Assembly (NCBI GenBank): GCA_002189035.1
Contig: NEEC01000026.1
Span: 310,001-374,000 of the forward strand
Direction: 5' to 3'
Source of the DNA: Utricularia gibba
Lineage: Eukaryota; Streptophyta; Magnoliopsida; Lamiales; Lentibulariaceae
DNA: 64,000 nt
Both the position numbers and the translations under genes were made by a program. Positions within the stretch are counted from its first letter, which is position 1, and every line of letters begins with the position of its first letter. Under the pieces are notes generated by a model. That model did not search any database and had not been told where the DNA came from. It saw only the letters and a list, made by a program, of their open reading frames with translations. Of this stretch, positions 38,402 through 58,510 are shown one piece after another.

Positions 38402-39185
38402 ACTGCCCAGTATTACCTCTCATTAACTATGGACCAACATTACGGACCACCAAGGAAGAAATCACTGCAAATCATTATGACTGTCCCTTATGCATCATCT
38501 TTGATGTAGAAGAAGAGTATGTGCTATGCCCTTACTTCTTCTAGATGCTTTTGAAGTTTTCTAGAAGGGAAAATGATGACCCTAACCACCATCTTCATGA
38601 GATGCATCAACTGAGTGTTTCCCTTCAACTTTATCGAACAAGCTTTGGAGTGGCTTTATGGACTTCCCCCATCATCTATTGCCACATTGGAGTAGATGGT
38701 TTAAAAATTCTTGGATCGTGTTGCGCCACTAAGAAGAGCATAGTTGGAAGTAGAGCCTTGACAACCATGATGCAAAGAAAAGGAAAAAAACTCACAAGAG
38801 TATTATGATTGTTTCAATTGAATCTGCAACTCCTACCCTTAGTATGGACTCAATGAAGCCCAGATTATTATTATTATCCGAGGATAGATGGATGTCTCTT
38901 GTAATGGATTATTATTAGAGAACCGTCATAGTGCTGATGCTCGAAGACTGATTGAACAAATGGTTGCAAACTTCTATTCTATAGCCAACCATTATGACAA
39001 CTCCTACAGACCATCTGGAGGAAATGTTGGAATAGCGAAAGTGGTCTATGAAGTAGACAACTCAGAAGTATTGGCTCAACTTACAGTAATGAGTGACACG
39101 TTGAAGTTTGGTCTTCAAGCTTTCTTCAAACAAAAGGAAGAATATCAAGGAGCGTCACGTTTCATGCCATCTCATGTTGATCCTG

Positions 39186-39480
39186 TTGGGTTTCTCATAG
39201 ACATCGTATGTCAAAAAAGCAGCGGAATTTAAAAATTTTTAAGAAACCCCAAATGCAGATCTTAGAATACGGTATACGTCAGATAAAGAGACACTGCAAA
39301 TACCTTTCAGTGCACTCCGTTGTTCACCAACCACCAATAGCATATGGCCTCTATGGTATCCACACGTGAAGCACTCCATCGATAATCTTCTCTAGGCTAT
39401 AGAATGTTGGTCGATCTCCTCAGGTACTAGTGGAGAAAATCGCCCCCTTGCGGATCAATCTCACAAAGAACCAAGGAGGG
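39186..39480 (-). repeat. Truncated copia LTR piece
   Basis: It begins TGTTGGGTTTCTCATAGAC like the end (minus) of the copia LTR at 54366-55817 and follows it for about 290 bp, then returns to Athila-like gag at about 39486. The rest of the LTR is missing. Confidence 0.8.
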
Positions 39481-39962: not shown

Positions 39963-41762
39963 TGTTAGTGTATATGTTTTAGAGACAATCAACTCATTGG
40001 CAAATCTTATCTTATGATATTTACTTTGAATTGTGATCAAATTTATATCATTGATAAAATTCTCTACTTGATCTATGTGCTATAGAAATTATGATAAGAT
40101 CATAATATGAGATTCTTCAAGCACTCATGCTCAAGTCAAAAACTCCCTAGCTAGAGTGTTTGTGAAATGAAGATATCACAAATACGGATAAGCTAGCACA
40201 CATTGAGTTCCCTAAACTATTTACGCAATGGTTCTCACAATTGATGTAATGAGATTACTAGAACCTATGTGTGGGTGTCGATTAGAGAATCAATTCACTG
40301 GATGACTCATCTTCGAGATGCTACTATGGGAAGCTAACCCAGTGTTAGTAGCAAGATCTCGAATATGAAAGCCGTGCAAGTAAGCTTAGACTTGAGGTCA
40401 ACAAAGTTATCTTGATCTTAAGCTCACATTTTCGCTCATTACTAATGGGAGCCTAACCATGGCTTGCCTAGTATGGATGGGTAGGTATGTGACTCCTTAA
40501 GGTTGGAGTAGTTGATTGATCAATAAAGGATTCATCACTCATGTTAGCGATGAGATCATATCTCAAGTAATTGCATCAAAGCCTAACAGTAAGTCCTGGG
40601 CCCAGGGTAATGACACTCGAATTGTTTGAGTAGGTCATTGAGTGTTAGTGCTTGAATGCAATTATAAGTTCGATACATCAGAAAGACACACACCCATGTT
40701 CTGGTACCGAATGAGATATAAGTATGATGAAAGCTATTCATTGCATGGTGGCTGGTCATGGAAAGGCTCAATCAGCTCACCTGATTATTCTTTAATCTTG
40801 GGATCATGATATGTTGCTAGACATCACTCATGATCGATAATGATGGATTTGATTAATTAAGAGTTAATTAATAAATCTATTATTACGGTTTTGATTGAAG
40901 AAGCCTATAGGGTCACACACAATAGTGGAGTTACTCAACGATATAAAATAGAATGACACAATTACATGAGATGTAATTGGTAAAGTGGATAAATTAAATT
41001 GAGAATTATTTTGAGATAATATTGATTAAACTCAAAATAAAAGATCATATATAGATAAGATTTGGAACATATACATATCTCCACAAGATAAGATCTTTAT
41101 GGAGATATGATTTGATATGTTACCATATATCTATCAAAAGATTCAGATTTTTAGAGAGGCCTCGAAGGTCTTCGTGCTCTCTGAGACTGATCCACAAGGA
41201 GGCGTTTTTTCTCTACTAGCATCTGAGAAATTCGACCAGCATTCAAGAGCCTTGAGAAGGTTATCGACGAAGTGCTCCACGTGTGGATACCATAGAGGTC
41301 GTCTGCTATTGGCGGTTGGTGAACAATGGAGTCATCTGAAAGGTACTTTGAACATCCATATGTCTGATGTATACTGTATTCCAAGATCTGCGTTGGGGGT
41401 TTCTCAAAATTTTTAAAATTCCACTGCTTTTGAGACATACGATGTCTACGAGAAACCCAACAGTGGTATCAGAGCAAGGTTACGGAATACGTGTATACGT
41501 TAGAATCTTTGCTGATTTTACGAGATGTTCTCGTATGTTGCCTTGTCGGTGACACGTTATAATCCTTGCTGATTTTTCGAGATGTTCTCGTATGTTGCCT
41601 TGCCGGCGATCATGATAATAGCATGTGATGCACGAAACCCAACAATAGACAGTTATTTTGATGTGTCGACGAAGAGATCGTTTGTGAGAATCTAGATGGC
41701 TCACTAGTCCAGAGCAATGATGTTTTGAAGCCATATGAAGATGCTAAGGAGAAGGTGTTAAG
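39963..41762 (+). mobile_element. Copia LTR with tRNA-Met primer site and 5' leader
   Basis: The LTR runs 39963-41462 (1500 bp), TGTTAGTGTATATG to AGAAACCCAACA. Directly after it comes TGGTATCAGAGC (41464-41475), the classic copia primer-binding site complementary to initiator tRNA-Met. The leader contains a ~60-bp unit twice (about 41503-41625), each with a CGAGATGTTCTCG palindrome. At 41763 an Athila-like LTR begins, so the copia element is cut. No 3' LTR is joined to it here. The LTR at 54366-55817 is its reverse-complement relative. Confidence 0.88.
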
Positions 41763-43290
41763 TGTCATTTTCTAAGTGTTTATTGTGTGTTATTACGTGT
41801 TAATTAGGTATTAAGTTGCCCAAATTAGGAGTTATATTTATAAGTATTTGATTTTATTAGTAAATTCCTATTTTTGTATTTTGTACATATTTTATTATCC
41901 TTTTTCATACACTTTCACCTAAAATGTCAGGAGGCAGGCTTGGAGTGTTGTAGAAGATTTGCAGGAGTTTAGACATTGATGTTTCGTGCCTTGCAAACAA
42001 CTTTAATCATTTGTTGGTGGAAGATTGAGATTTGTTAGGACCCCTGACTTACGACATGTCAGAGTCTGTAGAAATGATTGAGCACTTGCACACATGGAAA
42101 AGTTAGTGGCGAACAGACAAAAAAAATGATGGAAGTGGAGCAGAGGAAGTTAATGCATGTGAGAAGTGAATTAAAACTAACTTGGAACAATTTGGGAAAG
42201 ATCTAGAACTTTTGGTTCTTTCTCTCCACCATAGGAGGAAGAACACTTTAGCTTTCCATTTAGTTTTCCATTTTCATGACTATTCGTGGCTAAGGCCTTT
42301 TAGTTTCTGGAAATAGATGAAGTTTACTTCAACGTCTTGAGCATTAAAGCCAACTGGTCATTGGCAATAGCTGGGCACACACATAGAATTCGGTTTTGAA
42401 GGCGAGTGACGGCAATCCAACAAGGAAGCACATAAGGCTATTCCCGTGTTTCCTTGTCAATTAGAGTGTAAAAGAGAGTAGGCTAATTCTTGCTCCTATA
42501 ACTAGTTATTCGGAAGGAATCTGTGAAGGTTGAGGCGAGGATAGAAAAAAGGAGGAAGTGTAATCCATTTCTTAGGAATTCCATCCTTATTCAAGCTCCA
42601 TTACTTACGTTGTATCTTTTATTTCTGTACTTCAAAAACCCCCTTTTACAAACCCGTGACAATTTGTAAAAGTTTCCTACAAAACACTTTCCGAAAAACT
42701 CAACTCCCCGAAATCGACATTTGTGCTACGCTTTTTTGTATTTTTACATTTTTCTAAATTAAAATTTGTTGAATAAATGATAAGCAACAAATTTTTGGCA
42801 CCATTGCTGAGGAGTTGTGTATTTTTGTATTTAGTGTTGCATATAGTTTTTCTTTTTCTTTTCTTTTTCTTCCTTTCTTCTTGTTTTTCTTTTGTTTCAT
42901 TTTGGCTGCTATTTCTCTCTATTTTGATGCATTCAGCTCCATCGAAGGGCCATTGAAGCTTGAGATCATACCAAAATTTCTTGTGTCCATTAGATCTAGA
43001 GATTGAGTACACATTTCTGGCGAAAAAGACAGAATTAACTTCCAATTCATTTACTGCCCGAAGAAATGGTTGCTCAAAGACCTACTGGAGTCCTCATGGT
43101 TCACGAAGAATAGGAGCAACAACATCCTCAAATTTTTCAGTCCTATCGATCGTTGATCATGGCCAAGAACTACGAACCTTTAAAGAATAAATCACCGCCA
43201 ACCATGCTCACCGACCACTTTGTATCATCTTTGATGCAAAAGAGGACTTTGAACTTATCCATATATATTCCAGACACTTTGAATAAATCA
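41763..43290 (+). mobile_element. Athila-like gypsy fragment B (5' LTR, PBS, gag start)
   Basis: The LTR starts about TGTCATTTTCTAAG (41763) and ends AAGCAACA (42789). The primer site TGGCACCATTGCTGAGGA (42796-42813) differs from the tRNA-Asp-complementary Athila site at four positions. A gag-start-like region (PLDLEIEYTFLAKKTELT, about 42970-43035) parallels fragment A (PLDQEVERTILVKKREQT at 37113). It ends where the 5S-like tandem unit starts. Confidence 0.7.
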
Positions 43291-43519
43291 ACCGTGATGT
43301 GGATGGTCCGTTGGGGCAGCGCGTCGTGACGAGGACGTAGAAATTGCAACTTTTGATCGCTACATTCATGTGAGGGAGTCTCCAAGGTACGAGGCGTATT
43401 TAGAAATAAGGAACTGAAAAAATTAGCATGCTACATGAGCTCAACGGATTTTCATGTGGCCTCGATCCTCACGTCGCTCCTTGCACATACGCAACCAAAT
43501 GGTGTGTTATGTAAAAATA

Positions 43520-43614
43520 GGGATGCAACATGAGGACTTTCTAAGTGTCATCCATCCTAGTACTAATGTAGGCCAACCATGCTTGACTTCATTAGTGATG
43601 GTATGATCACATCC
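43520..43614 (-). pseudogene. 5S rRNA pseudogene, copy 1
   Basis: The minus strand begins GGATGTGATCATACCATCAC and ends with the typical 5S 3' half (AGTACTAGGATGGATGACAC ... GTTGCATCCC). It is about 95 nt against the normal ~119. The stretch between GCACTAA-like and AAGTCAAGC, about 24 nt including CGGATCCCATCAGAACTCC, is missing. Confidence 0.85.
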
Positions 43615-44032
43615 AAGCAGTGTTACATGACCAAATAAGCCATATGTCATGCTCCTCGATCCGGAATGCATAACTTTCAAATCGCTTTGATCGACGTGGC
43701 GCACAGCGTATCGTTTCGAAACTCTCTCCATGCCTGACACATGAATACATACTTTGACGGTCGTGCGACAATGTTTCAGCATTCGAAATGCAGCGGTGAT
43801 ATGCATGGTCCGTCGGGGCAGCTCATTGTGTCGAAGACGTAGAAGTTGCAACTTTTGATTGCTACGTTCATGTGGGGGAGTCTCCAAGGTACAAGGGGCA
43901 TGTAGGCATAGAGAACTGAAAAAAATCGGCATGCTACATGAGCTCGACAAATTTTCACGTGGTGCAGATGCTCACATCGCTCCTTGCACATTCGCAATCA
44001 AATGGCGTGTTCAATAAAATCATAGAAAAAAA

Positions 44033-44127
44033 GGGATGCAACATGAGGACTTTCTAGCGGTCACCCATCTTAGTACTAACGTAGGACAACCAAGCTTGAC
44101 TTCATTGGTGCTGGTATGATCATGTCC
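44033..44127 (-). pseudogene. 5S rRNA pseudogene, copy 2
   Basis: The minus strand runs GGACATGATCATACCAGCAC to GTCCTCATGTTGCATCCC, with AGTACTAAGATGGGTGACCG in the middle. It has the same ~24-nt internal deletion as copy 1, so the deletion predates the duplication. The internal promoter is damaged by point changes (AAGCTTGGTTG in place of AAGCGTGCTTGG). Confidence 0.87.
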
Positions 44128-44279
44128 GAGCGGTGTTACACGACCAAATAAGCCATACGTCGTGCTGCTTGGTCCGGAAGGCATAACTTTCAAACCGCTT
44201 TGATCCACGTGGTGCACATCATATCGTTTCGAAGCTCTCTTCGTGCCCGACACATGGATATGGAAATATGCGCGTCGTG

Positions 44280-46208: not shown

Positions 46209-46281
46209 AGGGATGTGGCACAGTTTGGTTGCCCGTTTGTTTTGAGTACAAAATGTGACATGTTCAAATCATGTCATCCCT
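46209..46281 (+). tRNA. trnP-UGG: Plastid-derived trnP-UGG (degenerate)
   Basis: AGGGATGTGGCACAGTTTGG at the 5' side, anticodon region TTTTGAGTACAA, and TTCAAATCATGTCATCCCT at the 3' side align with plastid tRNA-Pro. Changes in the D arm (GCACAG, GGTTGCCC) and T arm (ACATGTTCAAATCATGT) weaken pairing. Probably not functional. Confidence 0.87.
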
Positions 46282-46423
46282 ACCTATTGCTGCCCTTTTG
46301 GAAAATAGAGTAAGATCTATTCAAATTGCGCGAACTCATTAAACTATCGAATACAAGGGATTCACTTAAGAAAAAGAATAATTTTCTTTTTTCTTTACAG
46401 CCTTTTCTATTCTGATAAAAAAC

Positions 46424-46497
46424 ACGCTCATGGTTCAGTTCGGTAGAACGTGGGTCTCCAAACCCGATGTCTTAGGTTCAAATCCTACAGAGCATGA
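46424..46497 (+). tRNA. trnW-CCA: Plastid-derived trnW-CCA (degenerate)
   Basis: GTTCAGTTCGGTAGAACGTG, GGGTCTCCAAACCC and TAGGTTCAAATCCTACAGAG match plastid tRNA-Trp. One A is missing from the anticodon loop, and the acceptor stem has changes (ACGCTCA / AGCATG). The CCA anticodon is still readable. Confidence 0.9.
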
Positions 46498-46739: not shown

Positions 46740-46999
46740 TTTTATTTTTTAAAACGGAGAAAAAAGGCAATTTTTCGGAAAATAGAAATAATCCATTGAT
46801 GTATTCTAGAACACTACTTAATTTTGATTAATAAGAACACTTTTCAAAATGCATGAAAAGGCGGGTCAATTTGAGAAATGGCCATCTCTCTCCTCGTAAA
46901 TTTGAGAGATGGCCATCCCGTAAAAGCTCTTTGAAAAATGGTCATACTGAAAATGGCCAATTAGAAGAAAATCAATATTCACCTAAATACATTGACACG

Positions 47000-47621
47000 T
47001 CATTGTATTTTGGTGAAATACTGGATTTCTTTTAATTGGCTATTTTCAAAGAAATCTAATTTATTAAACCATCTATCTAATTACATAGTATTCTACATAG
47101 TAATATAAATATGTGATGATAACTAATGAATTCTCTAATAATTGCAGAGCGCAAAAGATAATCATGCCCTTCTGTAGTTAATATACATATATATATCTAT
47201 ATAAACATTTGTGTTATCAAATTATACAATGCAAACAATTTCTTTTATTTAAACTATATAAATATATTACATAATTTACATATCACAAGGTAAATCCATT
47301 TTTGTATATGAAATGAATGGTCCTGAACAAATTGAGGTACTTTTTGCCAATTTTAATTTTCAATTCCAGTCTATACCACACACTTCAGGAAACGCAGTAA
47401 TCTGGAAGAGTTTTATAGCTTATGCATGGAGATCAGCTCCAAGTGTCTCGACATTTCTTAATTCCCTATGCAGCGCTCGAAAAAAAAACATGACTATTAT
47501 AATTTTCATTTCTGCACTCTTCAAGAACAACCATAATTTGGAAAAGTGATACAGTTTCAACATAAAAAGGAAGACATCACTAACCAAGCATTGCTTCGAT
47601 CGAAACCATAATTAATACAAG
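47000..47621 (+). repeat. Left terminal inverted repeat of the MULE
   Basis: Begins about TTGACACGTCATTGTATTTTG and continues through GGTGAAATACTGGATTTC, CATCTATCTAATTACATAG, GCATGGAGATCAGCTCCA and GAAACCATAATTAATACAAG. It is the reverse complement of 56954-57572 with scattered differences. Confidence 0.88.
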
Positions 47622-49157
47622 AAGTTAATATAGATGAAGTAATATCTTTTGTGTAAAATGTAAAGCATGTTTCCGGATTTAGAAGCGATTTCTTTGGTGA
47701 GTCATCAATCAACAATGTATTCATTATATTGTAACGATAGTTGAACATTGTACCATCATCCCAAATATGTCGTAGGTCTTTAAATTTGATGGTGCTGAAG
47801 CTCCCGTCAATGCATATTCTGGTGTCATTACATTGACTTATCCCCAAAAAAATACAAGCTTTCGATGACTGCAATTTGCCATAATATAGTCGATTATTTT
47901 ATGTACGAGTGCACTACAGAGAAATAAAGTAATGAATATTTTAAAGTAATAGAAGGAAGGAGTACAAAGTTATGAGCATATGAACTTACTCTCTCCGTGA
48001 GGACCAAAATGCAACATCGAATGTTTCCATGTACCAATCTAGAAATTTGATACAATTTGGTCTGAGATAAACTACAATGAAAAACATACATCATTATTAT
48101 ACATATAATTAGAGTAGATCAATTTATTATGCTACTTACTTGCTCGATACTCAATGATGCAATTTGGTCTTCCAGCCGCTCGTCCTTTGTCCATAAACAC
48201 GACATCAGCAAGTACACCATTAACATCAAGGATGATCGATTTCATAGGTGTTGCAGCATCGATATCTTGAGGAATGAACGTCGGGTGTCTTGTTTCATAT
48301 TGGTAGATAGTGTCCCTTAGTTATGCAATTTCATTTCTAGTTGCTTCGAGCTCCAAACGCATCTAGATAATATCATTGTCATTCATTGTTGAGGGGCAGA
48401 CGAACCGACTGTCTTTTCCTCCTGTTCTTCTGGTCGAGTATGCATCTTACGAGGAGTGCCACACCATATATGGATTGATCCTCTAAGATTTGCAACGAGT
48501 GGCTCAATATCTACCCATCACATATCTTTTGCTACTACCAATGTTCCAAGACACTCTTTGTGCTCTTCATCCAATGGTTGCACACCTTACAATATACAAT
48601 ATACACATTCATTAATAGAAAATAAGAGAAAATTAATCAAATCACAAGATATTTACCAAAAAATAATCTTACAATTGGTCTTCCAATATTTGATTAGGTC
48701 GATAATTGCCTAGGTATCCTAATCATCAAATCTTCGAGTAGAGTAATTCATACGAAACTAGTCCACCAATCTCCATATGAGTCTTGTAAACCTGTGACAA
48801 TTTTAATTTTTGCCTTGGATGATATTGTAAAGTGATTCTTGTGGGCAACTTTGGAACACTTTACAATGCCAAACAATGCACTAACACTAAGCATAACTTC
48901 ATAAATGTAATAATATTACTGATGGAAGGTAGTGTTAAATGAGATAGTGAAACATGCACTAAACGAAGTACCGATTGGATAAAATGATGAATTGGTAATC
49001 TCAACCCACATTTGAAATGTTCGATACTCACAGCAAAAGCACAATCTCCAACATGCTTGGGTGATTCATCTGAAATTTGTTCTCCATCTTCCTTGTCTGA
49101 TATTACTAAATTTTCTGGCACCATATATCGCTGTTTGATTTTTTCTCCAATAGTCAT
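47557..49157 (-). pseudogene. Chimeric gene: gypsy-type transposon domain plus captured FCP1-like phosphatase
   Basis: On the minus strand, the start MTIGEKIKQRYMVPENLVIS at 49157 leads to FKCGLRLPIHHFIQSVL and, near 48830-48740, ISSKAKIKIVTGLQDSYGDWW. Both resemble plant putative gypsy-type transposase proteins. After a MNDNDII and coiled RLELEATRNEIA region (48388-48320) comes a HAD/FCP1-like domain: SIILDVNGVLADVVF (48243-48200), RPNCIKFLDWYMETFDVAFW and SSR (about 48050-48000), then ACIFLGISQCNDTRICIDGS, IKFKDLRHIWDDG and MNTLLIDDSPKKSLLNP (47855-47690). These fit, in order, the plant FCP1/NIF-like family (LDVNGLL, RPF...WSSR, NTLLLDDSPYKALLNP). There are two in-frame stops before the DVN motif and exon joins that do not splice cleanly. 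Probably a decayed captured host gene. Confidence 0.75.
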
Positions 49158-49639
49158 CTATTATACGAATGGTATAAATGTAAATATATAACATCAATAC
49201 TATGCATAAACTAACATATTAATCCACAAAAACATGAACATACAAATTGATATAATAAAAAAAGGTCAATTGGATATAGACATTCACTTCAAAAAGTAAC
49301 AATAATATTTTGTGTAATTTAATTAGAAAAGTGGCTCGGATTTGATGAAAATACCTGAATTAAATTCGTAAACTCACAAAAATGCATTGTATACAAGATA
49401 AAGATAATATAAATAATAAGGGTGAATTTAATACCTTGATAGAATTTGTAGAAATAGCCTAAAGAAAATTAAGATAGGGAAACCCTTTTATACCATGGTG
49501 AAGATGAAGAAAAAGAAGAGAAGAGGGGACCGAAGAAGAGAAATACAGTGGAAGAGAGAAAGAAGCGAGAGGTTGTAGGAACATTTAATAGGGTAGGTGT
49601 GTTTTACTTATGTTTAATGAATAAAAAAATTAATTTATG

Positions 49640-49945
49640 CTTGGAATCCTAGACGTTGCTTGTTACACACAAGTGATGCCTAGAGATATTTGGGCGTCAC
49701 CTATTGCACATAAGTGGCGTCCAAGGCTACTATTCAGATGCTATTAATGACAGATACACAATGTAAGCAGCAATCCAGGATATCTTGACGTCACTTATAT
49801 GACATAAACAGGGCCCTGGATGTCTATGAACGCTGCTTGTATGTACAATGCCCATGGCTGTCTGGGCATTGCTTGTGACATATAAGCAGTGCCCAAGATG
49901 TTGTGGACATTGCTTGGTACATATAAGAAGCGCCCAGATAATAGC
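49640..49945. repeat. Array of imperfect palindromes (GGGC-TTGCTT / AAGCAG-GCCC)
   Basis: The motif T(G/A)GGC(A/G)(T)TGCTTGT...ACATAAGCAG(T/C)GCCCA occurs several times, the clearest being GGGCATTGCTTGTGACATAT followed by AAGCAGTGCCC at 49862-49893. Units of about 36-40 bp are joined by AAGATGT or GGATGTCT linkers. It lies between the chimeric gene and the MULE transposase, upstream of the former. Confidence 0.7.
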
Positions 49946-49947
49946 CA

Positions 49948-50165
49948 TGTTTGGTTTTGCCTAGTACTTATAATTCACATCCAAGTCTCATTGTAAAAAT
50001 GAAAAATAGAATTGTGTTGTCTATTCGTACTAAGTTTGATATGATTTTATGACATTACTCCAGAATAATGAATCCACTCATGCTAGACATATAGGTTACA
50101 TAGAAATGTTCATTTTTTATGTCTAGAAAAAAAACTCTTTACCCTATCAAACATAGATTTTTTAC
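49948..50165. mobile_element. Possible small MITE
   Basis: GCCATGTTTGGTTTTGCC at the left and CCCTATCAAACATAGATT at the right form a weak inverted pair (C-ATGTTTG). No clear target duplication was seen. Confidence 0.3.
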
Positions 50166-50239
50166 CGTGCTCGATTGATGCGGTAGAGAAACTGGTCTCA
50201 TAGCTAGCATAGTCCCATCGTACAGTGGGACAATGTACC

Positions 50240-53200
50240 GATGATTTCAATAGCTCATCTTTTTTACCTCAGTCCAGTTGAGATGATGTGTGAAATGATG
50301 CCCGATATGTAGAGTGTGGATATTCTTGGCTAGATTCTGTTGCAAGATTCTGATCACGTCGGCCTCTGGTTCGTGTAGATTTTTGTGCTTGGTAATCCAT
50401 TGGCATTGCAAATCGAGTTGATCAAGGCCTGCCTCCACATACTTCCTTTTTCCAGGCAGGATCATGCACTAATGAAAATGACGTCGGTGGCCATTTATCT
50501 TCTGATCCTAGTGGTTGAAATTGCCTAATCTAGTGATCAAGATGTAACATCAAATTGATGACATCCCTGTGATCAATGTTCACCATTCGTCATGCCTATA
50601 CACATTGAATTACAAGTAAAAAGGATATACATATGAGTATATATAATGAAAGTAGTTGATCATAAATACCTGTTCTGCATGAGAACACGGTATGCCGAAA
50701 TTCTGCCACTTTCTACACTCACATGTGCCTTGAGCAACCATGACAATGAGTTTCTTTTGTTTTCCATTTTTCCTGCGTGTAGTAATCAAAATCTTTTTTG
50801 TGCATAATCAACTACCTTTATTGATGCATGAAGAATTGGTTTATCCCAACACGCATATAGCTTGTGCGATTGATCAACAAAACCAATGTGTCGATACATT
50901 TTTATATCTTGTTGAGAAGTAGTGCTCACATTGTACAAACGTTGCCTATATATATAAAAACCAAAATAAGATATGTAAATGCAACTTTTTATATTTTTCT
51001 AGTATTGTCTCACTCACCTGTGCCAATGCGCATTGGGGTAGATGTCTTGCTCTCTTTAATATTCCATTCATACCTTGATATTCCATTCATAGCTAAGTGT
51101 TTAGCCACTCATGAAAAGGGAAAGCAAAACGTTTTTATAGCATATCCTAAGCAATATTCTGGTTTCAAAGTTAAACAACAAGCAATGTATAACATAAATA
51201 GAAAAGACAAATTGTTCAAGCAGTAAATCTAAAACTAGTCTTAGCTAGGAACAGTATGTATCAAGAACGAAAGTAAATCTTCAAAGAAAACTTGTTCTTT
51301 AGGGTCGTCATCCCCTTCTTCTTCTACCCCATAAAAATCTCTAGAAAACATGTCGTGAGTATTCAATGGGGGAGATCTATCTTCTCTCTCTACTTTTTCC
51401 CCTTTTTGTCCAAAATCTCCCTTTTTCTTCTTCCTTGGATTTTGTATATACTTCTTTTCAGACTTCTGCCTCATCCTCTGCCACTACACTGTTCATATTC
51501 GGCTCCTTGGGATTTATGTTGCGACCTGCACTACATTGCTCAAAAAAAAATATTAGAGTAGATTTAGTCCCAACTAAGACTAAAATGACATGACTACGGT
51601 ACTATATGCAAAAATATGGAACTAAGTAGTAAAACTGGATTTTTGTAGCACAATATGAGTAATTTCCATGTACTCCATCACAAAAAAATATGTGTTATCA
51701 TACCTTCAACATGATTTGTTGTTAGCATACCATACCTATATGATAGTTATTGTTGTCGGTCAAAATTGCATGGTTAATATGTAACTACTAGTAAACATGC
51801 CTTACTCCTCCATTGTGCGACAATGTTAATGATTTAGGTTGTAACTTATTTAAATAATCCCATGCTTTTGGATGAATTGTATAAATTTCTCCCATGCACA
51901 ACCTCCATTTACTTACCGACGTTGCATACATGGCTTTCATAAATAGTTGCCTCATCTGTGGATATTTTCCATATTTTTCAAGAAAATTAGATTGTAAATG
52001 ACATATGCAATGACGATGTAAAACTCCATATTTAGACATGAATGCTCTTACTTTGGATGCTCCGTTCTCTATAGAAGGATATCGATCTGATATAACACAA
52101 CATGCTCTATTACCAAAAACATGTTGCTTCAATAGTTGAATAAACCAACACCAAGATTCATCATTTTCACATTCCACAACTGCAAAGGCGATGGGCAGAA
52201 GAAGACTAGAGGCATCCTTAGTTACAGCAATCAATAGCTTGTGAGAATATTGTGAATAGAGATGAGTAGCATCCATAGTGATTACCGGTTGACACCAACG
52301 GAATGCCTGAATACATTTTCCAAAAGACCAAAAACATACTGTAATATCTTTGTGTCACTAATTTTTGGATGCCTGTGTTGGTACCCTACAACAAAGGAAG
52401 GAGGCATACAGATGACTCCCATGTCCCATAAACAACTTCATATCCTTTTTGCAAGTTGTACCATGCTCGATAATATGAGATATCCTGATTTCTCTTTAAT
52501 CACCTGTTGAATAACTTTGTCTTTGGTACCAATATCGACTTCAAGAAAAGGTCTTGTGCATTCCGTGATGTATAATGAAGTAATATTTCGTTGGGATAAT
52601 GATTGTGATCCAAGACTTGTACAGGTGTGTGGCTCCTCAATACCTGTTATTTTCCAAATTGCATCACGTGTAAAATATGCACAACGAATCCTCCATTTTC
52701 ATCCCTTCTCCTTCATCTTATAGCAATGATATTCAACATACATCTCCTATTGCACTTTATATGATTTAAATTCACGATCAATTTTGAGACTGTATTCCAC
52801 AACATCATCATTGAAGGCCTCCTTTGATGAAAATTCTTGATATTTAAAGAATGGATAGGGCACTAAGCTAATGGGATCTAAGATTTCTCCAGAATGTTGA
52901 TCTTCATCTAGTATGGCATTTCTTATAAATGCAGGAGGTGCCTAAAGTGTATCATCAATATTAATTGTAGAATTATGTTCCCCTTCTTCTTATTCATTTA
53001 TCTCCTCACCTTCATCGATAGGCTCATTGCCTTGTATATCATAGTCGCTATCGCAGTCTTGCAAATCATCACGTAGAATGTCATTGGTCGCCAATTCATC
53101 ATGAATATCATCCTCGTGTAAATCAACATCACACCCCATATTTCGCACTTCCTTTGGAACTTGATCCATGAAAACATCAAATCCCATCTGTACATGGGTC

Positions 53201-53400
53201 GGATTGAAAGTATACAATAAATCATAATCGGAGGTAATACCTAGAATTCGTGTACACCTAGAAGACGAGTCATAAAATTGAACTCTTATTTGGATATCAA
53301 AATGTGTCGGATCTACATCACATACTGAACATAATTCATCTCGTAGACAATTCAACGACATCATACTATCGAAGCTTCAAATGTAGAGTGGTGGCATATC
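50240..53400 (-). pseudogene. MULE transposase (MURA-type) with SWIM zinc motif
   Basis: The minus-strand start region MMSLNCLRDELCSVCDVDPT at 53364 and acidic N-terminal part end in a stop at 52990. Then comes the zinc/DNA-binding region with IWKITGIEEPHTCTSLGSQS (52660-52600). The catalytic core follows: RWCQPVITMDATHLYSQYSH, LLLPIAFAVVECENDESWCW, CVISDRYPSI and HRHCICHLQSNFLEKYGKYP, stop at 51788. The SWIM motif CECRKWQNFGIPCSHA is at about 50735-50675. Two catalytic aspartates (MDATH, ISDRY) are visible. In-frame stops and an inserted repeat (51240-51705) between core and SWIM show the gene is dead, though its layout is that of a typical autonomous MULE. Confidence 0.88.
51240..51705 (-). 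repeat. Dispersed repeat inside the MULE transposase region
   Basis: Related to 23600-24010. On the minus strand its outer end reads TGATAACACATATTTTTTTG, LTR-like. It sits between the transposase core and the SWIM exon. Its other end is not resolved. Confidence 0.45.
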
Positions 53401-53899
53401 ATATGCTCTATAATCTTTGGGATACACAATCATATTATCTCCGTAAAAGATTTGACAATGATGGTTGTTGGATCCATCTTCTAACCTCCCAGAACGAAAA
53501 GGAACTTTGGAATGAAATGAGACGAATGACAATGTGTGTGTCCATGATTCATAGAGGAATAATGCATTTGTGATGATGGGTAGCACATGTTATGTTACGT
53601 AGGGTAGTGATATTAAGTCATTTGGTGTATTTTTTAATGCGTGGTGCCTATGCTTTATCTTTACTTTACTTCACTTTTTTCTTTATATAACATCATAGTT
53701 TCAAATAACTGATGACATGGTCAATGATGTACACTACATTCTATATTGTCAAAGAACATCTTTGAGTATTACTTAGATGAATATTTTTTGTATAACATGT
53801 TCTAAACAATGAAAATTGATGTGTTTAAGTGCTCTTACATATGCATAACTGCTTAGAGAGAAAATGATTGGAATCACATAGGTAATATGTTCATTTATC

Positions 53900-56280
53900 A
53901 TCATGTATTCATTGCCATAAAATGATTGGAATCACATGTGCAAAGGCTAAACAAGTGAAATACGGGAGTGTACACGGAAGCCATCGGATCTTAAGAGTGC
54001 ATCATTTAGCACCCAACTATATGTAGCAGACCCCTCCCACTCAGCAAGCACATATATAAATTTCATGTTTTCATCACATACACTCAACACGTTGGTGGAT
54101 ATCACACCCTTTCGATTTCTGTACCTTGCAGCTTTACATTTCTTGACCCATATACCGATCTATGTACCATCTATGGCCCCAACACAATTCTACAAATGCA
54201 CAATCAATTTTACATATATTCTTAAAAACATGTAAGAAAGGTGTATCTACCTTGAAGTGCTTGAACTTTCCTTCGGATGCACGTTCCCAAGCAACTTCTA
54301 GGGTCTCTAAGAGTACCTCATGAAGGCAAAGGACTGCATGCAACACCTTTTGAAAGCACCAAGACTGTTGGGTCTCTCGTAGACATTGTATGTCTCAAAA
54401 GCAGCGAATTTTAAAATTTTTGAGAAACCCCAAACGCAGATCTTGGAATACGGTATACATCAGACGAAGGGATGTTCAAAATACCTTTCAAATGACTTCG
54501 TTGTTCATCAACCACCAATAGCAGACGGCCTCTATGGTATCCACATGTGGAGCACTCCGTCGATAACCTTCTCAAGGCTCTTGAATGCTGGTCGAATTTC
54601 TCAAGTGCTAGTAGAGAAAAATGCCTCCTTGTGGATCAGTCTCAAAGAGCACGAAGACCCTTTGGAGCAAATCTCAAGGTCTAAATCTTTTTTATAGATA
54701 TTTTGTGACATATCAAATCATATCTATATGAGATCTTTTATTTTGAGTTTAATTAATATTAATCTCAAAATAACTCTCTATTTAATTTATCCACCTTACC
54801 AATTACATCTCATGTAATTGTGTCATTCTATTTTATATCGATAAGTGACTCCACTGTTGTGTGTGACCCTATAGGTTTCTTCAATCAAGGCCGTAATAAT
54901 GGATTTATTAATTAACTCTAAATTAATCAAATCCATCATTATCGATCATGAATGATGTCTAGCAACATATCATGATCCCCAAGATTAAAGAATAATCACG
55001 TGAACTGATTGAGCCCTTCTATGACAGCCACCATGCAATGAACAGCTTTCATCATACTTATATTTCATTCGATATCAGAACATGGGTGTGTGTCTTTCTG
55101 ATATATCGAACTTATAATTGCATTCAAGCACTAACACTCAATGACCTACTCAAACAATTCGAGTGTCATTACCCTAGGCCCAGGACTTACTGTTAGGCTT
55201 TGATGCAATTACTTGAGATATGATCTCATCGCTAACATGAGTGATGAATCCTTTATTGATCAATCAACTATCTCCAACCTTAAGGAGTCACATACCTACC
55301 CATCCATACTAGGCAAGCCATGGTTAGGCTCCCATTAATAATGAGCGAAAATGTGAGCTTAAGATCAAGATAACTTTGTTGACCTTAGGTCTAAGCTTAC
55401 TTGCACGGCTTTCATATTCGAGATCTTGCTACTAACACTGGGTTAGCTTCCCATAGTAGCATCTCGAAGATGAGTCATCCAGTGAATTGATTCTCTAATC
55501 GACACCCACACATAGGTTCTAGTAATCTCATTACATCAATTGTGAGAACCATTGCGTAAATAGTTTAGGGAACTCAATGTGTGCTAGCTTATCCGTATTT
55601 GTGATATCTTCATTTCACAAACACTCTAGCTAGGGAGTTTTTGACTTGAGCATGAGTGCTTGAAGAATCTCACATTATGATCTCATCATAATTTCTATAG
55701 CACATAGATCAAGTAGAGAATTTTATCAATGATATAAATTTGATCACAATTCAAAGTAAATATCATAAGATAAGATCTGCCAATGAGTTGATTGTCTCTA
55801 GAACATATACACTAACAAAGACATAGTCTTGGTGCTCCACCTATAAACATGCTTCTGCACCCGAATTTTTTTATGGTGACCTAATATTTCTAAAAACATG
55901 CAAACCATCTCCATAACTATAACATATTTTCCAGCCTTTAAACTAGAATGATTTTCTAACAGACTGCATAAAATACAGAAGGCATCTCAGCTGATTCTCA
56001 AGTTCTCAATGGATGCGATGTTCACATCACTTACCAACCTACTAATATACTCAACTTGTTTAGTAATCTTGTCTGTAAGGGAATACCTGTGTCTCACCCT
56101 ATATCCCCTACGGTAATTTTTCCAATATAAGTATATTAACACATCCATCCCAACCAAGTATTTGGTTAATACTACCACATCCGCACTCAAGATGACATGA
56201 CCTCCATGGAAAAATCCATGTCCCCTCAACAATAGCAAAAATCGAGCAAAATAAATCCACACACACATAGCACAACTAAT
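53900..56280 (-). pseudogene. PIF/Harbinger (ALP1-like) transposase, split by a copia solo LTR
   Basis: The minus strand reads KITKQVEYISRLVSDVNIAS, then FCILCSLLENHSSLKAGKYV and CMFLEILGHHKKIRVQKHVY (56080-55830). After the inserted LTR come VLHAVLCLHEVLLETLEVAW (54340-54280), an intron, NCVGAIDGT (54190-54160), RYRNRKGVISTNVLSVCDEN and FIYVLAEWEGSATYSWVLND (54130-53990). This is the order of PIF-type transposases. The first Asp (AIDGT) is kept, but the second, normally in EGSAxDSRVL, is replaced (ATYSWVL). Stops occur before FCILC and after AFMRYS-like frames. Inactive. Confidence 0.87.
54366..55817 (-). mobile_element. Copia solo LTR with 5-bp TSD AAGAC
   Basis: 1452 bp from TGTTGGGTCTCTCGTAGAC to ACATATACACTAACA, flanked by AAGAC at 54361-54365 and 55818-55822. 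It is the reverse complement of the LTR at 39963-41462 over its whole length. It interrupts the PIF transposase gene, so it is younger than that gene. Confidence 0.95.
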
Positions 56281-56479
56281 TTTGAAATTGGAAAATCACA
56301 TAACACACCCACTATGCGGTGCTGTCGTGGACAAACTCACTAAGAACAAAAAACACACTTACCGGAAGACCCACCCTTTGCGCTCAAATTGCACGTGATG
56401 CCGCCGGCAATTCATGAACCTTGCGTCTAGTTTGTAGATTTGTATTCAAATTTGGATGACGTGAGGGTAAAATTGGAAG

Positions 56480-56675
56480 CGAAGAGCCTTGTTTAGCTAA
56501 ATCAACCACCCCCCATGAGTTTAGCTAAACCCAGCTCGATGGGTTCCTGTCGGGTATATAGGCACCTAGCGGGTTTATTTTTATCCGCCTGAAACCCACG
56601 AACCAAACGTGGATTTATGTCTAAATCCACGCCACAACCCACCTAAACCACCCAACCAAATGCACCCTAAAGGAA
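56480..56675. repeat. Possible PIF/Harbinger element end
   Basis: CACCCAACCAAATGCACCC followed by TAA (about 56655-56672) looks like a PIF-type terminal repeat (GGGTGCATTTGGTTGGGT reversed) next to a 3-bp TAA target. The inner part repeats GGTTTAGCTAAAC-like strings. The matching left end was not found. Confidence 0.4.
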
Positions 56676-56679
56676 AAAG

Positions 56680-58510
56680 AGGGGCAGATCTTTACATACA
56701 AGACAATACTTTATGAGTTGAATGTGCCTCTGAAATGATTCCAATTCCAATACAAGTAGTGTATCTTGAAGAACAAGCATCTCATTATAGGAGTGGAGGA
56801 AGTAGAAAGGGAAAGGAAAAGACGTGCTAGGATGATGGGTGATACATGGTTTTTATGTGGCACTTTTGGTTGTATCAATTATTAGAAGTGACTAATGTTT
56901 GTGATATTTGCATTGTTTTATGACTTTGTTTGAAGTAGACATTTAGTGGTTTTCTTGTATTAACTATGGTTTCAATTGAAGCAATGCTTGATTAGTGATG
57001 TCTTCCTTTTTATGTTGAAACTGTATCACTCTTCCAAATTATGTTTGTTCTTGAAGAGTGCAGAAATGAAAATTGTAATAGTCATATTTTTTTTTCCGAG
57101 CGCTGTGTAGGGAATTAAGTGACGCCTAGACATCTGGAGTTGATCTCCATGCATAGATTGTAAAACTCTTCCGGATTACTACATTTCTTGAAGTGTGTGG
57201 AATAGACTTGAATTGAAAATCAAAATTGGAAAAAAAGTACCTCACTTTATTCAAGACCATTCATTTCATATACAATAATGGATTTACTCTTTGATATGTA
57301 AATTATGTACATATATTTATATAGTTTAATTAAAAGAAATTGTTTGCATTATATAATTAATTACACAAATGTTTATATAGATATATATATGTATATTAAT
57401 TACAAGAGGGCATGATTATCTTTTGTGCTCTGTAATTATTAGAGAATTCATTAGTTATCATTACATATTTATATTATTATGTAGAATACTATGTAATTAG
57501 ATAGATGAATTAATAAATTAGATTTATACTAAAAATGGCCAATTAAAAAAAATTCAGTATTTCACCTAAATACTTGTCAGAATGCATGAAAAGGCTGATT
57601 ATTTTTGAAATTGGATACAAGTGGGAGATCACCAAAAAAAGTCGTGTGATGGACGAGGTAGTGATGAAAATGGGCCCCAGGATCCCAAGACCAAAAGGCC
57701 ACCCCTCACCCTGGCCTCCCTTGGACTAGGCGGGGGCTACACGTGTCAAGTCGTGGGCAGTTGCAGTTAGGTTCAAGCCGGCTGGTGGGTGGTTGGTCGT
57801 TCCAACTGGTTCATGTCTTCTTTTATCACGCCAGCGCCTTGCACGTGGAGCCATGTGTTGCCCTCCCTGAGTCCGGCTGGGCTGGGCTGGGCTCCTCCAG
57901 CGCTCGCCATGGACATGGAATCCTTCCCTTTCTATCTCCGATTCAGGCAAGGACAGGACAGGACAGGACCCTCTCCTCTCCTGGGAGTTTCTTTTGTGTG
58001 TGTGTGTGTGCGTGTGGAAGGAAGGATTCGCTACTCGCGAGGATCAAATCCATCAACGAATTAAAGCAGGGGGGTGGTTATTCAAAACCATTACTTCCCC
58101 AATTATTAAAAATTCAAAAATAGCTGGATTCAAAGAAGCCATCAATGCGCGGCTGCGGAGCGAGAGAACATCCTTTGCACAAATTTCAGGTAATACTTCT
58201 TCCTCTCCCTCGGTTCGGCTCGGCTCGGCTCGGCAAGGGAGGACAAACCCCAACACCTTTCCTAACAATCGCGGGGCTCCTCTGTCAACACAGTCCTGCG
58301 TTGAACGCTGCCTCTTTTGCACACTCGGGGATGACCGCAACCCTGGCTTCAGCGTGATGCCAAGTCCAGATTCAGGCGAAAGTGCTCCTGGGTTTCTATT
58401 TTGGGAGTGGAAGGTGGGGGGCTTGGCTTCTGTTTCACTTAGATCTGATCCCATGCGTCTATTCTGCTTATTGTGATTGATCGGACACTGGATTCGAATT
58501 TCCGCACAAG
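56680..58510. other. MULE right end and CRK upstream region
   Basis: It includes the right TIR up to 57572 and, from about 57600, GC-richer unique DNA that is the promoter and 5' leader region of the kinase gene, with a TG microsatellite at about 57993-58015. No clear TATA box or leader intron boundaries could be fixed. Confidence 0.5.
56954..57572 (-). repeat. Right terminal inverted repeat of the MULE
   Basis: CTTGTATTAACTATGGTTTC through GCAATGCTTGATTAGTGATG, TGGAGTTGATCTCCATGCAT and CTATGTAATTAGATAGATG to CAGTATTTCACCTAAATAC. It pairs with the left repeat over about 620 bp, long for a terminal repeat but normal for MULEs. Confidence 0.88.

Follow-up and report, generated by a model that had tools for sequence, protein, structure and literature searches.

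A transposon gene that fuses a Transposase_28 (T28) domain to an FCP1-like domain, here called T28-FCP, is a regular accessory gene of both MULEs and hAT elements in Utricularia gibba. The two halves form one gene, which recurs across the genome, is associated with both kinds of transposase and is under purifying selection; arrays of palindromic sites lie near its T28 part. T28-FCP looks like a self-serving transposon regulator, not a scrap of a stolen host gene. The copy from which the analysis starts lies at 47557-49157 (minus strand) in the window, by which we mean the whole 64,000-nucleotide stretch of U. gibba DNA analysed. That copy, now decayed, derives from a genuine transposon gene in which a coiled-coil-like linker connects T28 with an FCP1/UBLCP1-like HAD domain.

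The window element and its T28-FCP gene

The window gene sits in a degraded MULE of approximately 46864-57588, with TIRs of about 620 bp (Table 1). The two TIRs (47005-47623 and 56952-57573) align over 622 nt with 90% identity, and the right arm has no counterpart to the distal 140 bp of the left one. The left end, at about 46864 and starting with GGGTCAATTTGAGAAATGGCC, is placed by means of other copies, which align from query position 24-29. The target-site duplications of MULEs usually measure 8-11 bp, a length exceeded by the 15-bp direct repeat that is the candidate here; for the C413 copy, the candidate duplication matches at 7 of 9 positions, as judged by eye. A three-exon transposase gene and the T28-FCP gene lie between the TIRs in the same orientation. 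The PF10551 domain, together with long TIRs whose ends match those of other copies, identifies the element as a MULE. It does not fit the definition of a Pack-MULE, a non-autonomous element with a host-gene fragment and no transposase, as a transposase is present in the window element and also in L045, L046, L049, L052 and L053.

Table 1. Features of the window MULE, its T28-FCP gene and the neighbouring palindromic sites (positions in the window).
Feature	Position	Strand	Remarks
Left TIR	46864-47623	+	aligned core 47005-47623; starts GGGTCAATTTGAGAAATGGCCATC
Right TIR	56952-57573	-	distal end missing
15-bp direct repeat AATGCATGAAAAGGC	46849-46863	+	second copy 57583-57597; candidate target-site duplication; by eye
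Transposase, N-terminal exon	52990-53376	-	conserved with the transposases of L042, L046, L049 and L051
Transposase, middle exon	52438-52698	-	
Transposase, catalytic exon (PF10551)	51788-52354	-	E 1.4e-13
Transposase_28 (PF04195/TRP28) exon with start codon	48861-49157	-	premature stop
Coiled-coil-like linker	48282-48362	-	MRLELEATRNEIA, stop, LRDTIYQYETRHP; heptads by eye
FCP1-like exon, HAD motif I	48138-48245	-	ILDVNGVLAD, D-x-N
FCP1-like exon, motif II	47989-48069	-	FWSSR
FCP1-like exon, motif III/IV	47674-47912	-	KFKDL; NTLLIDDSPKKSLLNP; frameshift at about 47836-47840
Apparent gene 3' end, TIR sequence	47557-47623	-	
Four 29-bp palindromic sites, GGCRYYGC-N13-GCRRYGCC	49652-49934		one exact, three with 2-3 mismatches

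The T28 exon matches the PF04195 profile with E 2.4e-7 (31.3 bits; cut-off 26.2), and the joined FCP exons match PF03031 (NIF) with E 2.3e-7 (31.0 bits; cut-off 21.8). Taken individually, each of the FCP exons falls under the PF03031 cut-off, and the genome-wide scan with this profile therefore missed the window locus; as the exons of the module are short, such a scan is unsuited to the purpose, and copies were counted by DNA and protein searches. The linker region has counterparts in L046 (LEEARKEVDQLKKTIYQYETRYP) and in L055. In the window copy, the T28 exon is interrupted by a stop after codon 98 and the linker by another, and the motif III/IV exon has a frameshift; the copy lacks the normal last exon (NNAMLPYTY...FLEGL..DDV in the L046 version), and is thus a pseudogene whose 3' end is cut at the TIR.

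The first-pass annotation of this DNA had described a gene inside the inverted repeats of a MULE that starts with transposon protein motifs and continues into an FCP1/NIF-like HAD phosphatase, and all of this is borne out by the matches given above, with the three phosphatase motifs that it quoted present in the order stated. Its picture, in which a transposon gene neighbours a captured phosphatase, is correct in that both domains lie in a TIR-bounded MULE, but the two are one fused gene, because in L056 (C402:1345500-1354999) a single frame of 181 aa runs from the C-terminal part of T28 through the linker to HAD motif I. It had also taken the T28 motifs as a sign of a gypsy-type element; they are no such mark here, since T28 is known as an accessory domain from Retand LTR elements (PMC11963269) and is now found in MULE and hAT elements as well.

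Several other repeats were observed in and around the element. A dispersed 1.5-kb repeat forms an inverted pair (39963-41464 / 54364-55817, 91.5%, with a partial third copy at 39183-39475) that is easy to confuse with the MULE TIRs; it was rejected as the TIR pair of the element, one of its arms lying inside the element defined by 47005 and 57573 and the other outside. Nested in the window MULE are this inner arm (54364-55817) and a repeat of about 608 bp (approximately 51093-51700) that has at least 30 copies of about 79-89% identity. The latter resembles a short MULE-type element, because it is absent from the related C4 element (L051) and is flanked by a 9-bp duplication, TCATACCTT, recognised by eye. 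Just outside the MULE, an AT-rich region at about 45.1-46.8 kb resembles inserted organelle DNA and holds two tRNA-like sequences (46209-46284 and 46423-46497), a Ser TGA and one without an assigned type. There is also a tandem duplication of about 470 bp (43285-43747 / 43786-44260, 82.5%) reminiscent of 5S rRNA, for which a comparison of the 43.3-44.3 kb repeat with Rfam gave no match.

Recurrence beside two kinds of transposase, and selection

In the U. gibba genome (100.09 Mb, 516 contigs), the DNA of the window gene has 44 matches, the longer ones 66-85% identical and many of them extending across both halves of the gene. Among the 129 genomic Transposase_28 matches, 53 have an FCP-like match downstream on the same strand, mostly at a distance of 1.0-1.5 kb (modal bin 1.0-1.25 kb). 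The gene order transposase - T28 - FCP is found in L045, L046, L049 and L053; in L052 the order is the same, and the first FCP exon is the only one found. Inverted repeats were found in L046, L052 and L053, with the module inside them in L046 and L053, and TIRs bound the C413 copy at both ends (3479-3494 kb); L043, with the gene and TIR remnants and no transposase, resembles a short derivative element. All copies that we read closely contain stops or frameshifts, with no intact protein among them; many keep long open frames, for example of 239, 340 and 232 aa.

Nine FCP loci have a MULE transposase upstream of them on the same strand, compared with a mean of 1.5 and a maximum of 6 when the transposase positions were randomly shifted. 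The hAT dimerisation domain PF05699 is placed likewise at 12 FCP loci, in most cases 2.4-3.6 kb away (null mean 1.4, maximum 7, in 1000 trials); both associations are well over chance. The hAT-linked loci are among the more distant T28-FCP loci. At L055 and L056, hAT domains (dimerisation or RNase-H) lie near the T28-FCP module, an assignment to hAT that reflects domain proximity; neither locus has a MULE match within 8 kb of its T28 domain, and no obvious long inverted repeats were found at the ends of their 9.5-kb pieces.

Two further arrangements deserve mention. At least six hAT-type loci carry an extra T28 match about 1.3-2.4 kb past the FCP domain, always on the same strand (e.g. L056, 6850-7194); at several of the hAT loci it is 2.3-2.4 kb downstream. 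At three T28-FCP or FCP loci (C244:738.7-743.7 kb, C244:1114-1119 kb and C414:307-312 kb), the MULE arrangement is divergent: 4.7-4.9 kb upstream, the transposase occupies the opposite strand.

Between MULE lineages, dN/dS of the FCP part is 0.10-0.29 (dS about 0.9-2.2), with every bootstrap confidence interval below 1, and a similar depth yields 0.12-0.30 for the transposase; the FCP part is thus under purifying selection as strong as that on the transposase. For T28 the ratio is about 0.2-0.35 in most pairs, leaving out the C413 value, a seeming artefact in which the T28 matches of two pieces were merged. Among young copies dN/dS climbs to 0.4-0.8, as would be expected from the decay of dead copies. 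The low ratios between lineages and the rise in young copies therefore indicate that the gene is selected in active elements and decays after insertion.

In a tree of FCP domains with the host DLNGLL-type gene L014 as outgroup, the window-type MULE domains form one group (split support 0.98), while the other side (support 0.90) holds the hAT loci, L059 (a MULE with divergent gene order) and two unassigned loci. The transposon FCP sequences are deeply diverged among themselves and from L014. We read the tree as suggesting that T28-FCP may have been exchanged between transposon superfamilies, a suggestion and not a firmer statement because the FCP alignment is short. The nearest solved structure is that of the CTD phosphatase UBLCP1 (PDB 3shq, E 5.2e-9 across the HAD domain), and against PF03031 L057 scores 48.0 bits and L060 18.3 bits, the latter under the cut-off. 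In nearly all copies, as in the host relative L014, motif I reads D-x-N and not D-x-D-x-(T/V), which makes hydrolysis by the phosphatase part doubtful.

These data bear on three other explanations of the gene. It might belong to MULEs only, the hAT copies having inserted beside it and the resulting composites having been duplicated, and here the fact that the hAT link is one of domain proximity would fit, as would five more hAT matches that lie downstream of the module in opposite orientation. Such an indirect link is nonetheless quite unlikely, considering the 12 same-strand upstream cases and their distances against the null, the hAT domains of L055 and L056 with no MULE match close by, and the separate tree branches on which the FCP domains of hAT loci sit. 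The module might instead be a host FCP1-like gene transduplicated into a MULE in Pack-MULE style and amplified as functionless cargo. Gene capture is common in MULEs (PMC6446971), the host has in L014 a gene of this FCP subtype with the DLNGLL motif, and the window copy and the other copies examined are pseudogenes; passive cargo would, however, not show the between-lineage dN/dS signature of the FCP part, and neither the presence of the same fusion beside two transposase superfamilies nor the wide divergence of the FCPs from one another and from the host gene agrees with it, so that we regard this reading as quite unlikely too. The first-pass annotation had proposed searching for other MULE copies with the same module, and these do recur, TIR-bounded ones included; a reading as captured cargo of one MULE is too narrow, and one as passive cargo is not supported, given dozens of copies, some beside hAT genes, and selection matching that on the transposase. 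Finally, the fusion might be carried by a domesticated host gene family with which transposons only hitchhike. The long open frames kept in many copies could be seen in this light, but the copies are dispersed, several lie in TIR-bounded elements with transposase genes and many have stops, and we give this explanation hardly any weight.

Palindrome arrays near T28 genes

The palindromic sites of the window form two pairs with a spacing of about 41 bp and lie upstream of the gene, 0.5-0.8 kb before its start codon; Tandem Repeats Finder did not report this array, probably because its units are too diverged. The overall form of the palindromes is 28-29 bp, GGCRYYGC-N12/13-GCRRYGCC. Arrays are present in the window, in L042, L046, L049, L051, L052 and L054, and at the hAT locus L055 (8 of the loci examined), where eleven sites about 56 bp apart have the same geometry as those of the MULEs. 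L056, the other hAT locus, has a diverged variant of the motif (CCAGGCACCCA), and no clear array was found in L044, L045, L047, L048 and L050. The array lies between the transposase and T28 in L046, L049, L051, L052 and L054, and upstream of the transposase in L042. In the MULE L051 (4498-4690, 5256-5438), which has no FCP part, a palindrome array occurs together with a T28 gene in divergent orientation; this suggests that the array accompanies T28 rather than the phosphatase.

Exact sites are rare. The MULE-type pattern occurs eight times in the genome, one of these being the window site at 49864-49894, and six of the eight lie 0.7-0.9 kb from a T28 domain; the hAT-type pattern occurs six times, and for five of these sites a T28 or FCP match lies no more than 2.3 kb away. 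The 2-kb flanks of such matches make up 0.85% of the genome. As the patterns were designed from L046 and L051 (MULE) and from L055 (hAT), this association is partly circular, and independent exact support is smaller, consisting of the MULE L054 and three hAT-type loci, which may be copies of one family. In addition, when half-site profiles of MULE and hAT arrays were made without recourse to the motif, with the two dyads of a tandem array kept apart, their registers coincided (p 0.0025, in one of 8 comparisons). Palindromes also occur within the TIRs or subterminal inverted repeats of L046, L052 and L054, and the window TIRs contain degenerate ones at 47450 and 57099.

Possible function and comparison with known systems

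We put at about an even chance the proposal that T28-FCP is a selected accessory protein which would regulate its own element through the palindromes, much as VANC does. The protein would dimerise through the coiled-coil linker, which fits a palindromic site, and its T28 part would bind the dyad-symmetric sites beside the gene and, in some families, those in the element's own TIRs. At these sites the FCP1-like part might then work on a phosphorylated target, for instance the CTD of RNA polymerase II; alternatively, as the general-acid Asp is replaced by Asn, it might hold a phosphorylated partner without cleaving it. The element would thereby be transcribed or desilenced, the anti-silencing role being one that we infer from VANC and the VANDAL MULEs. 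A broader version is possible, although we lean against it: T28-FCP may be a sequence-specific anti-silencing or activating module common to MULE and hAT elements, with a shared palindrome code and a T28 reader that is also found in Retand. If this were true, T28-FCP would amount to a counter-defence against host silencing that can be carried between transposon types.

The strongest competitor, on account of the palindromes located in TIRs, is a cofactor in transposition itself. T28-FCP might bind palindromes in the TIRs or subterminal regions and aid transposase assembly, or regulate cutting by (de)phosphorylation, like a helper of the mudrB/TnpA type. The palindromes so placed in L046, L052 and L054 would fit, as would the degenerate ones in the window TIRs and the company that the gene keeps with a transposase in the same orientation. 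In L046, L052 and L054, given these positions, the transposase itself could be the ligand. The densest arrays, however, lie between genes, 0.7-0.9 kb from the T28 domain, and not at the termini; moreover, one helper serving the unrelated transposases of MULEs and hAT elements is less likely than a role in transcription or chromatin. We thus consider a cofactor unlikely.

Parts of such a system are already known, namely enzyme domains in MULE accessory genes, T28 in Retand elements and the pairing of a transposon-derived domain with a phosphatase. In the literature searched, mostly without subscription papers, we found no T28-FCP fusion and none shared by MULE and hAT elements, in agreement with the first-pass statement that no described MULE family was known to carry this phosphatase. 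UBLCP1 matches the HAD domain, and the host protein of L014, one of the plant DLNGLL FCP1-like proteins, shares D-x-N in motif I as well as WSSR; UBLCP1 differs in its full D-x-D motif, and no T28 domain is reported for these proteins. In Retand LTR elements, T28/TRP28 is an accessory domain with predicted DNA binding, encoded near tandem arrays, and the role of the protein is given as unknown (PMC11963269). These antisense ORFs (PMC11963269, PMC6317226) thus resemble T28-FCP in their domain, their accessory status and the tandem repeats often near them, while they belong to LTR retrotransposons, and PMC11963269 mentions no phosphatase, MULE or hAT element. The KIU/ULP1 MULEs (Kaonashi and relatives, PMC13317346) likewise have a host-type enzyme domain in a conserved accessory gene; their enzyme is a ULP1 protease, in contrast to the FCP1-like HAD domain fused to T28. 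In MAIL3 and MAIN/MAIL1-PP7L (PMC7156037), a transposon-derived domain is paired or fused with a phosphatase and affects transposon expression, but these are host genes that silence transposons, and they combine PMD with a PP7-type PPP phosphatase.

The closest functional model is VANC of the Arabidopsis VANDAL MULEs (PMC5735166, PMC10398659), an accessory gene that, like T28-FCP, lies beside the transposase. VANC removes silencing and binds to short motifs repeated in tandem in the noncoding parts of the element that encodes it (PMC5735166). The palindromes described here are candidate targets of the same kind, arrayed in noncoding parts of the element, with a motif that varies by family. VANC differs in having DUF1985/DUF287 (searches with E limits of 1 or 0.1 gave PF04195 alone for the T28 exons, and no DUF1985 homology) and in its motif YAGTATTAY, which is arrayed in one orientation and is not palindromic. 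VANDALs are, in addition, non-TIR MULEs, described with no mention of hAT elements, and their anti-silencing is demonstrated, where that of T28-FCP is deduced. To the question of which counter-measures against silencing plant transposons possess besides those of VANDALs, the U. gibba genome contributes a T28 protein under selection that has a candidate effector domain as its fusion partner, along with candidate target arrays. Its recurrence in MULE and hAT elements would show that an accessory gene can pass between superfamilies that have no transposase in common.
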